Positions 2,473-63,789 of a stretch of DNA of 64,000 bases are shown here, one piece after another. The notes under the pieces were generated by a model, which was not told the origin of the DNA, ran no database searches, and saw only the letters and a list, made by a program, of their open reading frames with translations. Both the position numbers and the translations under genes were made by a program. The DNA comes from Candidatus Hydrogenisulfobacillus filiaventi (GTDB lineage Bacteria; Bacillota; Sulfobacillia; Sulfobacillales; R501). Position 1 is the first letter of the stretch, and every line of letters begins with the position of its first letter. The DNA lies in assembly GCA_902809825.1 (NCBI GenBank), contig LR778114.1:1488001-1552000 (forward strand), given 5' to 3'.

Positions 2473-5470
2473 TCAAACCCGCGCTGCCGTAGGCCGGACG
2501 CCGACCGGGAGCGGGTCCCAACCACCGTCCCGGCGGTAGCGGTGGAATTCCCCCCGCAGCGGATCCGACGCCACCAGGGTTACCCAACCGTTGCGGCAGA
2601 GCCGATCCGCCCGCTCCTGCCTGCGCAATGCGCCCTCTATGCGCTCCCGCGGGGCCGCCACCACCGTCAGCAGACGCAACGGCTCATGATAGCGGGCAGG
2701 ACCGTCCATCACCGACTGGAGCGGCAACCCCCGTTCCAGGTCCCCACGGTTGCCCTGCATGACCCCGAAGCCGCCGACCACATTGTGGAGCGCCTTGCTG
2801 CCGCTGCCGTACCCCCGGTTGTCAACACTGGAGAAGTAATACTGCAGGTTAATCCAGGCGGCGACCACCAGCGGCCCGCCTAGAAGGCCCTCCAGTACCC
2901 GGCCGTCAGGATCCCGGTCTGCGTCATAGGATTGCAGGAAACAACGTCCCTCCAGGTCCCGGGCACGGGTCAGGTGTCGGTCGGCGATGAGCAGGGCGGC
3001 ATTGCGCGCCTGACCCCATTCCGGCTGCACCTCGGCCCCGTCCCGGCCGCGGCGGGCGGCATAGCGGCGGGCGGGCCGGGGCAGCATCCCGGCCGGCGCT
3101 CCCGGCAACCGCGCCAACCGCTCCCGGGCCAGGCCGGCCGCCGCGGCGGTCAGGTCCTGCTGCAGGCGCGCCGCGGCCCCACGCCACGCCGGGGGAAGCG
3201 TCTCCAGGCCGAAGAGGCGCACCGCGTCGGTGGTGGTGTCATGCTCGCCGGCCACGAACCAGGTGTCATCCGGGATCGCCATCCCCGCCGCGCGCAAGCC
3301 GGCCCGCACCGCAGGCCGGTTGGCCAGGGCCGCCAGCACCCTGGCGTTCGGGCCTCCGGCCTGGCCCCCGCAGGCGCCGCAGGCGAGGGCGGCGGCATAC
3401 GGGTTGTTCTCGCTGGCACTGCCGTGCCCGATCAGCGCCACCAGCGGCGCGAACCGGCGGGTCATTCCTGCCGCCCGCAGGGCGTCCCGGACCACCTCCA
3501 CCTGGCGGGCGACGGGCAGCTCCGCCGCGCCCGGGCGCGGACCGCCGTCCGGCCCGGCTGCTTCCGGCCCCGACCGCTCCGCCGGGTAAATCCGCGGCAC
3601 GGTGGCCACCTCCGGCAGGAGCCGGCGCCGCAGCCCGGCCTGCAGGGCATGGTACCCGCGCGGCCAGAGGGTGCGGAGCACCAGCGGCACCACATACCCG
3701 GCCCCGATGGCTTCAATAAGGGGATAGGGGGTCACCAGATTGGCCTTGAGCTCTCCCAAAACCCCCGACAGGGCATGAAGCCAGTGCCCTCCGGCCTGAC
3801 GCCGGCGCAGCCGGCGCGAAGAGCCCCCGGCAGGGGTTTCCTCCACCAGCAGGCGGGGTTTCACCGGCGCCGGGCAGCGCACCGACGCCGGGCCGGAATC
3901 CAAGGGGCGGAACCACATGGGGACGCCGAAAAACCCGGCCGTGCCCAAGGTCTCATAAGCACCCCGGCTTTCCAGGTGACGACGCAGGCCTTCCGAGCGG
4001 CTATCGATACAGAACACCACCTGCGCCGGCGGGCGGGAATCCCCCACCCCGCCCGCCGCCGGGGCGGCATCCGCCAGTTGACGCAGGAGGCGGCGCCGGT
4101 ACCCGGCTTCATACGCCTCCTGCCACACCCACCGCCGGCGCTCCGGAGGCAGCAGGCCGGTCAACCGGAGCAGACGGTGCACCGTGACATCCGGCAGCGC
4201 CCCCACCTCACCGGGGGACAGGGTCAGAAACTGCGCGAGATAAAACAGCAGCCCGGCCAGCCGGAGACCCGGATCCGGAGGGGAAGGCGATTCCGGCCCC
4301 GCCTGCCCCGCGGCCCGCGCGCCGCCGGCGGCCGGGCCCGCGGGACGCGGACACAGATGCCTGACCAGTACCGCTTCATAGAAGAGGCGGACCGCCAGGT
4401 ACTGGACGAGGTCCATGCGCCCGGCGCCGGCCGGCGCCGGACCCGTCTGCTCTGCGTGCCAGCGGATAAATCCGGCCCAGCCGGGCAACTGCACCAGGTG
4501 CCGGCGCAGATAGGCGGTCCACTGCCTCTCCGGCACCTCCAGGCCGCGCAGGAGCCCGAGGATCGCATCCTCCGGCTCCGCCGGCAGGGCCTGCAGCTGC
4601 CGGGAGAACGTGACAATCCCCAGCGCCGCCAGGGATCGGTCATGAACAGCCAAGGTCTTCCAGGCCCGGTAAAAGCCCCGCTCCCGGTAGGGCATGGGCC
4701 AGGCGGCCTGCCCTTCGTCCAGAAAGGCGGCGCACCATTTGATCAGCTCCTGGTTGACCCGCTCCGGTACCGCCACGCCGGTGACCGTCTGGCACCATTC
4801 CCCGCGGGTTGCTACCGGCGGTTCCAAGACCGGCGGAGCCGGTCCCTCCCGCCTGCCGGCCGTCCCGGCGCCCCGGGGCGAAGGCTCCGGGAACCGGAAG
4901 CGGGCGGCCCGCTCCCGCGCGGCCGTCCACAACAGCCCCGCACACCGCCGTTCCGGATCATCCACCCGGCTCGCCCGGCCGCCGCCCGCCTCCTGCAGGC
5001 GCCGGCAGAGGCGCACCCGCAGCCCGCGGGGAAGGTCGGGATGCAAGCGCGGCGGCCCGGATCGCGCACGGCCCGCGGAACCGGCGGGACCGTCATCCCA
5101 CCCGTAGACCTGATGCAGCCAGAGCAAGCCGGAGGCGGGGATCCGCCTGCGCCCGACGAGCAGGCCCTGCCCGGCGCTGTCCGGAAACCGGATGCGCAGC
5201 ACCTCCGCTACATCCCGGCCGCTAATCCGCCCCGCCCCGAACAGCCGCCGGTACTCCGCCAGGTCCAGCAGACCCTCTGCACCCAGATGCCGGCGGGCAT
5301 AGTCCACCGCCACCTCGAACGGGAGATGCTCCAGGCCCTGCAACGGATTGATCGCCACCCAGCGGAGGAGGTGGGGGAGGGGGGGCGATAAGGTCGGCTG
5401 CTGCATCCACCTGCTTACGAATCCGCGCCCGCACTTCCGGACTGGCCGCCTCGAACCGGACTCCTGTCAC
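2473..5470 (-). CDS. dabA: DabA inorganic carbon transporter subunit (UPF0753/DUF2309), frameshifted near N-terminus
   Basis: DabA is the large zinc-binding, beta-carbonic-anhydrase-like subunit that, with DabB, accumulates bicarbonate. The family's CIDSRSE lies near residue 485, and GHGSASENNPYAAALACGAC near 680-697, giving the expected Cys, Asp, His and Cys ligands. The true start is probably GTG 5470. It overlaps the previous stop as GTGA and follows a strong AAGGAGGT. That frame reads RIRKQVDAAADLIAP and is then lost at the C-run near 5371-5380. The remaining ~975 residues follow in another frame, which could also start at ATG 5406. Removing one C joins the two as LIAPLPHLLRWVAINPLQG. The length otherwise matches the family. 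Confidence 0.9.
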
Positions 5471-55089: not shown

Positions 55090-56100
55090 CTAGAGCCGCC
55101 GCCCGAGGGCGGCCGCCACGCGGCTGACGTTCTCGACCAGGTGGGTCAGGTTAGGCAGGTTCAGACTTTGCGGCCCGTCCGACAGCGCCTCGGCCGGGTT
55201 GGGATGCGCCTCGATCAGGAGGCCGTCAGCGCCGGCCGCCACCGCCGCCAGGGCCATGGGCTCCACCAGGCTCCACTGGCCGGTGGCGTGGGAGGGATCG
55301 ACCACCACCGGCAGGTGGGTCAGCTGCTTCAGCACCGGCACCGCGGACAGGTCGAGAGTGTTGCGGGTCTTGGGCTCATAGGTGCGGATGCCGCGCTCAC
55401 ACAGGATAATGTCAGGGTTGCCGTGGGCCGCCACGTACTCGGCGGCCATCAGCCATTCGTCAATGGTGGCCGCCATGCCGCGCTTCAGCAGCACCGGCCG
55501 CCCGATCTGCCCGACCGCTTTCAACAGCTCGAAGTTCTGCATGTTGCGGGTGCCGATCTGCACGATGTCGGCGTATTCCGCCACGTACTTGAGGCTCTCG
55601 TGGTCGACCGCCTCGGTAATAATGGCCAGGCCGTACCGTTCCCGCGCCTCGGCCAGGATGCGCAGCCCCTCCACGCCCAGCCCCTGGAAGGAGTACGGGG
55701 AGGTACGCGGCTTGTAGGCCCCCCCGCGCAGTACCGGGCACCCCAGGTCGCGGGCCAGCTCCGCGACCGCCATGACCTGCTCCCGGCTCTCCACCGCGCA
55801 AGGCCCGGGCATCATCACCACCTCGCCCGTGCCGAACGCAGCCCGGCCGACGCGGATGACCGTGTTCTCGGGATGGAACTCCCGGCTGACCAGCTTGTAG
55901 GGCCGGCGGACCGGCACCACCTGTTCGACCGTCTGTAAGGATGCCAACCGGACCACTTCCTCCGTGCGTTCTCCGATAACCCCGATCACGGTGCGCTCGG
56001 TGCCGCGGGACACATGGGCCTTGAGCCCCCATTGCCCCAGGCGGGCGACGATCTCCTCCACATCCTGCTCCGTGGTTCCGGGCCGCATGACCACAATCAT
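55090..56100 (-). CDS. aroF: 3-deoxy-7-phosphoheptulonate (DAHP) synthase
   Basis: This is the entry enzyme of the shikimate pathway, condensing PEP with erythrose-4-phosphate. The 336-residue protein starts at ATG 56100 after GGGGAGGAA. Residues 1-75 are a ferredoxin-like regulatory domain ([20 protein letters not shown]). The barrel has [54 protein letters not shown] and [15 protein letters not shown]. This is the Bacillus/Thermotoga-type DAHP synthase. Two T-box leaders precede it. Confidence 0.96.
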
Positions 56101-56134: not shown

Positions 56135-56412
56135 AAAAAGGCCTTCGTCCCGCCGTTAAGGGACGAAGGCCTGCTCCGTGGTACCACCCTTGGGGGTACG
56201 CATTGCGTACCCACTCACCCCCGCTGCCAACACAGCAGGGTCCCCGTAACGGGGGGATGCCGGCTTGCCTACTACCGGCCGAACCGGGTTCGGCGCACAC
56301 TCACGGGGGTACGGCCTGGGGCTGCGGTTACCGGCTTGCACCTGCCGCCGGCTCTCTGAAACCGCCGCGTCCGGCCCCTTCCCGATCATCGCTTTGTTGC
56401 GGATGGAAGCTG
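56135..56412 (-). promoter_or_regulatory. T-box riboswitch, tyrosine specifier, upstream of aroF
   Basis: The leader has a stem I with the AGAGAGCCGG and GGTGCAAGCCGG T-loop motifs. The specifier is UAC at 56311-56309. The T-box GGGTGGTACCACGGA is at 56189-56175. The terminator is GGCCTTCGTCCC / GGGACGAAGGCC (56140-56171) with five U. Uncharged tRNA-Tyr would favour read-through into aroF-tyrA-aroA. Confidence 0.9.
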
Positions 56413-56417
56413 GGGCG

Positions 56418-56447
56418 AATATACCCCAGCCCCCACCGGAGTGTCAA
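56418..56447 (-). promoter_or_regulatory. Promoter of the Tyr T-box leader
   Basis: On the minus strand TTGACA (56447-56442), 18 bp and TATATT (56423-56418). It lies between the Phe T-box terminator and the Tyr T-box. Confidence 0.7.
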
Positions 56448-56491
56448 GGGTTCCCGGCCTTCGTCCAGTCCGTGCCGCTACGGGGAGCGCG

Positions 56492-56772
56492 AAAAGCGCC
56501 TCCGTCCCTGAGGGACGGAGGCGCTCTCCGCGGTACCACCCTGTCGTTCCCCGGCCGTCGCCGGCCGGGGCCCTTTATCCGCTGCCAACACAGCGGTCCC
56601 TGGTAACGGCAGGGTGCCGGCTCGCGTACTCCCGGACCCGGGGCCCGGTTTCGGCTTGCGCTCCCGGGGGAATGCGGGGCACCAGTCCACCGGCTCGCAC
56701 CATCCGCCGGCTCTCTTGGGCCCTGGCGCCGCCCCGCCGCTTCCCGGTCATCGCGTTGCGCGGTCTAGGCTT
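56492..56772 (-). promoter_or_regulatory. T-box riboswitch, phenylalanine specifier, first of the tandem
   Basis: Stem I has AAGAGAGCCGG and GGTGCGAGCCGG. The specifier is UUC at 56672-56670, aligned with UAC and UGG in the other two leaders. The T-box GGGTGGTACCGCGG is at 56541-56528. The terminator is GCGCCTCCGTCCC / GGGACGGAGGCGC (56496-56524) followed by TTTT. Transcripts from trpA would also reach it. Confidence 0.9.
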
Positions 56773-56778
56773 GCGGTG

Positions 56779-56808
56779 ATGGTAGCGCCGCCCCCGGGCG
56801 CTTGTCAA
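56779..56808 (-). promoter_or_regulatory. Promoter of the Phe T-box leader
   Basis: On the minus strand TTGACA (56808-56803), 18 bp and TACCAT (56784-56779), 45 bases after the trpA stop. Confidence 0.6.
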
Positions 56809-63523: not shown

Positions 63524-63789
63524 AAAAATCCCTTCGTCCCTGGGACGAAGGAACCTCCGCGGTGCCACCCATGTTAAACCCACAACGGGTTTCACTCAGC
63601 CGGTACAGGACTGCCGTCCGATACCGCCTCCGTTGATAACGGGTGGAGTTCCCGGCCGTACGTACACCTTCCGGTTCCGCAGGCTGCTCCCGAGCCCATT
63701 CCCCGGACTCCGTCCCACCGGCCTTCCACCGTCGCCGGCTCGCTAAGGGCCCTCTGTCCGGGTACTCGCCTCGATCATTGCATGAACTT
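63524..63789 (-). promoter_or_regulatory. T-box riboswitch, tryptophan specifier, upstream of trpE
   Basis: Stem I includes GGCGAGTACCCGGAC, AGCGAGCCGG and GTCCGGGGAATGGGC. The specifier is UGG at 63698-63696. The T-box GGGTGGCACCGCGG is at 63570-63557. The terminator is CCTTCGTCCC / GGGACGAAGG (63531-63551) followed by five U. Uncharged tRNA-Trp should turn on trpEGDCFBA. Confidence 0.92.

Follow-up and report, generated by a model that had tools for sequence, protein, structure and literature searches.

Tandem T-box leaders of predicted phenylalanine and tyrosine specificity, each with a putative promoter, precede aroF in Candidatus Hydrogenisulfobacillus filiaventi

Tandem T-boxes, among them those of trp, ilv/leu and thrS operons, are common and are usually described as sensing identical ligands (PMC12452182). 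For the hom gene of C. difficile a double T-box was reported whose units are presumed to recognize different tRNAs (PMC11477304). In the adenine riboswitch/T-box-Tyr tandem of C. botulinum a promoter is located before each switch, and an AND gate made of a T-box-Leu and a ppGpp riboswitch is likewise known (PMC9481103). The B. cereus group represents a case where a Phe T-box was derived from a Tyr T-box (PMC2494555). A review of 2020 (PMC7583486) lists it as unknown how tandem T-boxes act.

The locus described here lies in a 64,000-nucleotide stretch of the Candidatus H. filiaventi genome (the window), which is the sole member of its family in our comparison set (G000). A first-pass annotation of the window had placed two complete T-boxes head to tail in the gap between trpA and aroF, and their coordinates, minus-strand orientation and order turned out to be correct. 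The relevant features, in the direction of transcription, are as follows (R1 is a covariance model made solely from the aroF leaders of relatives; energies in kcal/mol).

63538..63787 (-), T-box leader of the trp operon (specifier UGG, bulge UGGC), the Trp gate that lies upstream; RF00230 102 bits
56854..57687 (-), trpA (tryptophan synthase alpha), which closes the upstream trp operon; TIGR00262 230.5 bits
56779..56808 (-), P1, putative promoter TTGACA-18-TACCAT, placed 23 nt ahead of stem I of T1
56508..56760 (-), T1, upstream T-box leader, predicted Phe; RF00230 37.1 bits, E 2e-6; R1 74.0 bits, E 4.4e-15
56670..56672 (-), predicted specifier of T1, UUC (Phe)
56535..56538 (-), T-box bulge of T1, UGGU, complementary to a tRNA 3' ACCA (discriminator A)
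56492..56526 (-), terminator of T1, 15-bp stem plus UUUU; -31.5 versus -12.2 for the antiterminator
56418..56447 (-), P2, putative promoter TTGACA-18-TATATT between T1 and T2
56156..56398 (-), T2, downstream T-box leader, Tyr; RF00230 76.8 bits, E 1.3e-16; R1 129.4 bits, E 1.7e-27
56309..56311 (-), specifier of T2, UAC (Tyr)
56183..56186 (-), T-box bulge of T2, UGGU
56135..56172 (-), terminator of T2 plus UUUUU; -27.1 versus -8.3 for the antiterminator
55090..56100 (-), aroF, DAHP synthase with an N-terminal ferredoxin-like domain; NF006421 490 bits, PF00793, PF18152
54218..55078 (-), tyrA-like gene (prephenate dehydrogenase), next after aroF; PF02153/PF20463
52867..54231 (-), aroA (EPSP synthase), next after the tyrA-like gene; TIGR01356 386.5 bits

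The trpA stop codon precedes P1 by 46 bp, and no T-run terminator is present in the sequence between them. A search of 1.1 kb with RF00230 recovered both leaders at full length (model positions 1-219), and both were also recovered by R1, which gave other leaders of the genome 46 (ileS), 33 (ilv) and 20 bits (trp). Both RF00230 scores are under the gathering score of 93 bits, which is a curated cut-off and not a structural feature; the genome is GC-rich, and of its 12 T-box matches the trp leader alone passes it. Distal T-loops are found in both leaders (AGAGA in each; UGCGA in T1 and UGCAA in T2), and in each the antiterminator and terminator stems are mutually exclusive, the 5' half of the T1 terminator being common to the antiterminator. 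The presence of two T-boxes is nearly certain. On the opposite strand, a match to the AdoCbl riboswitch (plus strand, 56377-56527; 27.5 bits versus a cut-off of 50) overlies the T1 terminator and P2 and was rejected as a chance overlap with the T-box hairpins.

The loop E (AGUA-GAA) motif of stem I and a purine 3' of the specifier are common in T-boxes, not universal. In T1 and T2 the motif is absent and replaced, and the specifier is followed by C. The same holds for nearly all members of the order (alignment A1), so that both peculiarities are, as judged from this alignment, a trait of the subfamily; the pheS leader and Tyr leaders display one or both of them. In columns 13-20 and 85-93 of A1, which comprises 29 aroF leaders, the 5' loop usually reads GAAGG and C mostly follows the specifier.

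The best DNA match of T1 is T2 (72% over 180 nt, E 3.8e-19), and next come the aroF leaders of relatives, which mostly rank above the other leaders of the genome and without exception above its pheS leader. Of the 45 columns that are invariant in relatives' aroF leaders, all are kept in T2 and 42 in T1, where the changes concern an end base, one base of stem II and the central specifier base, which is U instead of A (column 90). Identity between T1 and T2 amounts to 93% inside these columns and to 59% outside (Fisher p 1.4e-5), which argues that T1 diverged under constraint or selection. T1 is most likely a diverged copy of the Tyr T-box T2 that was re-aimed at Phe by one base. Since P1 belongs to a conserved promoter module (see below), it was most likely the whole promoter/T-box/terminator cassette controlling aroF that was duplicated in this lineage, and the upstream copy would then have changed from UAC to UUC. 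In a tree of the leaders T1 and T2 branch off early among the aroF leaders, but support for this position is weak, T1 having a long branch and a skewed composition, and the topology is compatible with a duplication older than the order as well as with a recent one. The AU test allowed a grouping of T1 with T2 (p-AU 0.52), with the UUC-bearing leader of a second aroF gene in another genome of the order (L186; 0.35), and with the pheS leader (0.22). An origin of T1 from the pheS leader (L009), although still allowed by this test, was rejected because that leader ranks far below nearly all aroF leaders and yields no BLAST match.

The alternative that survives best is that T1 is a decaying duplicate devoid of tRNA sensing, at most a constitutive end of trp transcripts, and that T2 (Tyr) alone controls aroF. 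Decay would account for the low Rfam score, the long branch and the GC-rich drift of T1, but hardly for divergence that largely spares the invariant sites. Likewise, the weaker -10 element and a terminator with four U only would fit a degenerating leader, and no close relative is at hand to show long-term retention; against this, both T-loops, the F-box, the bulge and the mutually exclusive antiterminator and terminator are all intact in T1, and the specifier change produced a sensible aromatic codon with a matching discriminator. We regard decay as unlikely and T1, judging from these features, as probably still functional.

P1 and P2 are the sole promoter-like sites in 1.2 kb, compared with 0.2 expected in shuffled sequences. 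They match the consensus at 10 (P1) and 11 (P2) of 12 positions, with two mismatches in the -10 element of P1. The first-pass annotation had assigned a TTGACA promoter with an 18-bp spacer to each leader, which agrees with the sequence and with a conserved module (TTGACA, 17-18 bp, TA...T, located some 15-26 nt ahead of stem I) found at nearly all aroF leaders of relatives. P2 occupies the site of the single aroF promoter in nearly all of these relatives. With these properties, P1 and P2 are candidates for active promoters. That both operate at useful levels, and hence that output takes the form of a quantitative staircase, seems somewhat probable to us; polymerases starting at P1 and P2 could possibly interfere. 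If only one entry were used, namely P1 or read-through from the trp operon, the tandem would simply be an AND gate with two inputs, Phe and Tyr. Such serial gating is how the T-box tandems already known have been described, and a promoter match alone is no evidence of activity. However, P2 is the better of the two matches, lies at the promoter position of relatives and has the conserved spacing, which makes the single-promoter reading quite improbable.

Specifiers were located by a six-base rule, according to which the specifier stands six bases before GAG at the foot of stem I. The rule fits the leaders of trp (UGG), Ser (UCC), ileS (AUC), proC (CCG), valS (GUG), ilv/leu (CUC) and pheS (UUC), the names of the genes behind the T-boxes of this genome having been assigned by eye from N-termini. 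Two Thr leaders need seven bases and are exceptions. Two thrS-like genes (L011 and L012; G000:C1:988302 and 848364) each possess a T-box, whose core AATGGTGGTGGAACCACGG is an odd variant of the GGGTGG..ACC core.

Application of the rule yields UUC in T1 and UAC in T2. Among 29 aroF leaders of the order, UAC is the sole invariant codon-sized triplet in the specifier loop; the bases on either side of it are both variable, and the loop is flanked by covarying helices with double changes in 16 of 27 pairs, a value reached in none of 500 shuffles. The alignment to R1 places the UUC of T1 over UAC. Rule, alignment and invariant triplet thus agree with the order of Phe and Tyr triplets proposed in the first-pass annotation. 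Moreover, tRNA-Phe (GAA) and tRNA-Tyr (GUA) both end in ACCA, matching the UGGU bulges, and tRNA-Trp provides a built-in control as its end, GCCA, matches UGGC of the trp leader. T2 is almost certainly a Tyr T-box, and T1 is very likely a Phe T-box. Since the specifier loop of T1 has neither the canonical GAA ahead of the codon nor a purine behind it, the frame is set by distance, and a neighbouring frame (AUU, Ile; CAU, His; UCC, Ser; CCC, Pro) would make T1 specific for another amino acid. We consider this highly improbable: the distance rule leads to UUC, and it does so too in the genome's own pheS leader (UUC-CCUGCC-GAGC), the covariance alignment concurs, the Ser leader of the genome has the bulge UGGC and not UGGU, and UUC is fully complementary to the GAA of the tRNA-Phe that was found, whereas AUU (Ile) and CAU (His) would need wobble.

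In T-box regulation, uncharged cognate tRNA stabilises the antiterminator by pairing with both specifier and bulge, while charged tRNA leaves the terminator in place. DAHP synthase catalyses the first step in the synthesis of aromatic amino acids, and aroF encodes the single DAHP synthase of its family found in the genome (one match). We propose that T1 responds to uncharged tRNA-Phe and T2 to uncharged tRNA-Tyr, each leader terminating transcription with charged and reading through with uncharged tRNA. Low Tyr would then suffice for RNA initiated at P2, and RNA initiated at P1 would require low Phe and low Tyr, which is the AND condition put forward in the first-pass annotation and supported by our analysis. 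RNA reading through from the trp operon would require low Trp, Phe and Tyr, and T1 would double as a conditional end of the trp transcript. Because T2 is the last leader before aroF and no gene is located between T1 and T2, every route to aroF would need low Tyr. With Tyr high, no aroF output is predicted regardless of Phe and Trp; P2 would contribute when Tyr is low, P1 and P2 when Tyr and Phe are low, and trp read-through in addition when all three are low. Output of aroF, the tyrA-like gene and aroA would thus resemble a staircase, with Tyr depletion as master gate and further increments from depletion of Phe and of Trp, and a shortage of Phe or Trp alone is predicted not to induce aroF. 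The earlier view that DAHP synthase is wired to three aromatic amino acids was overstated, as T2 would gate all routes and Phe and Trp would only add flux once Tyr is low. The leaders with their codons, bulge matches, competing stems, promoter sequences, common origin and conservation can be read from the sequence; promoter activity, trp read-through, tRNA binding, termination and summed output are elements that we infer, and the scheme as a whole, with two working gates, Phe and Tyr specificities and nested entry points, appears fairly likely.

Of the order's 41 other genomes, none was found to have tandem aroF leaders. The leaders read in these genomes are single Tyr leaders, except the one at the second aroF gene of G021. 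As four members of the class also carry a single UAC leader (read by eye, partly with Rfam), Tyr is likely the ancestral specificity. The second aroF of G021 is preceded by a T-box of the subfamily with UUC (L186; G021:C152:15400-17800), in which the A-to-U change in column 90 is the only change at the 45 invariant sites. A pattern scan of the order for further Phe leaders gave nine matches, with a T-box only at G021 (L186/L197); this pattern was so strict that T1 itself escaped it, as could other diverged Phe leaders. The second-tier R1 matches that were checked are ileS and ilv leaders, none of them Phe. Several genomes of a second family of the order possess two aroF genes, one directly behind trpA without a T-box of its own and the other with a Tyr T-box (L177, L178, L180 and L182 versus L176, L179, L181 and L183). 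Based on these paralogs, the G021 paralog and the tandem of the window, the order has three arrangements for splitting the control of aroF among end products, i.e., by Trp/Tyr paralogs, by Tyr/Phe paralogs and by the stacked leaders described here. More distantly, the T-box of an aroF gene of Acetivibrio alkalicellulosi (L063, about 4640-4860) reads UUC (Phe) by the distance rule. In the genome of the window, pheA is located elsewhere, behind an ilv/leu-type cluster headed by a CUC (Leu) T-box (L171; G000:C1:765800-778000), and the other Phe T-box found is that before pheS only. Among the aromatic biosynthetic genes of this genome, aroF thus appears, by sequence, to be alone in having a Phe-sensing T-box, namely T1.

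Taken together, the locus may represent a natural nested-promoter RNA circuit in which serial T-boxes for different tRNAs produce a staircase that counts the aromatic amino acids in short supply, with Tyr as master gate, and which was built by cassette duplication and a one-base specifier switch, while another aroF paralog of the order independently underwent, or else inherited, this switch; we give this full picture an even chance. It would illustrate a way for a bacterium in which one aroF was detected to balance the shared entry enzyme among three end products, and as a two-input, two-promoter tandem it offers a testable truth table. The conversion of a member of a Tyr T-box subfamily into a Phe T-box by one codon base would also be a clean case of RNA regulator rewiring, seen in two settings, in tandem before a single aroF and at a second aroF gene (L186).

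With the trp, ilv/leu and thrS tandems (PMC12452182) the locus shares two full sensor/terminator units in series, and it differs from them by its two different predicted tRNAs and by the second, putative promoter between the units. The hom double T-box of C. difficile (PMC11477304) also combines two presumed specificities before one biosynthetic gene but belongs to another pathway, and neither separate promoters nor a duplication with codon switch are stated there. The predicted nesting is the same as in the adenine/T-box-Tyr tandem, where the first RNA passes both switches and the second only the T-box; the first input there is adenine acting on an OFF switch, whereas at the locus described here it would be a tRNA. 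Serial AND logic for starvation signals is likewise common to the T-box-Leu/ppGpp system, whose second input is ppGpp. Duplication followed by a Tyr-to-Phe specifier shift has a parallel in the B. cereus group, but there the copy precedes a transporter gene, and in the window it stayed in tandem. Finally, single Tyr T-boxes precede aroF elsewhere in the order and the class. Those of the order belong to the same subfamily, with the same UAC, promoter module and hairpins, and T2 is an ordinary member of it; the single leaders lack the Phe gate that T1 would provide. The first-pass annotation had called mixed specificity with separate promoters unusual, yet there are precedents for a mixed tandem (PMC11477304) and for a promoter between switches (PMC9481103), and it is the combination that is uncommon. 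In the literature consulted, a Phe/Tyr pair made by cassette duplication, each leader having a putative promoter of its own, before a single aroF seems to be undescribed, although older reports on mixed tandems may have been missed. The locus is an uncommon combination of well-known parts.
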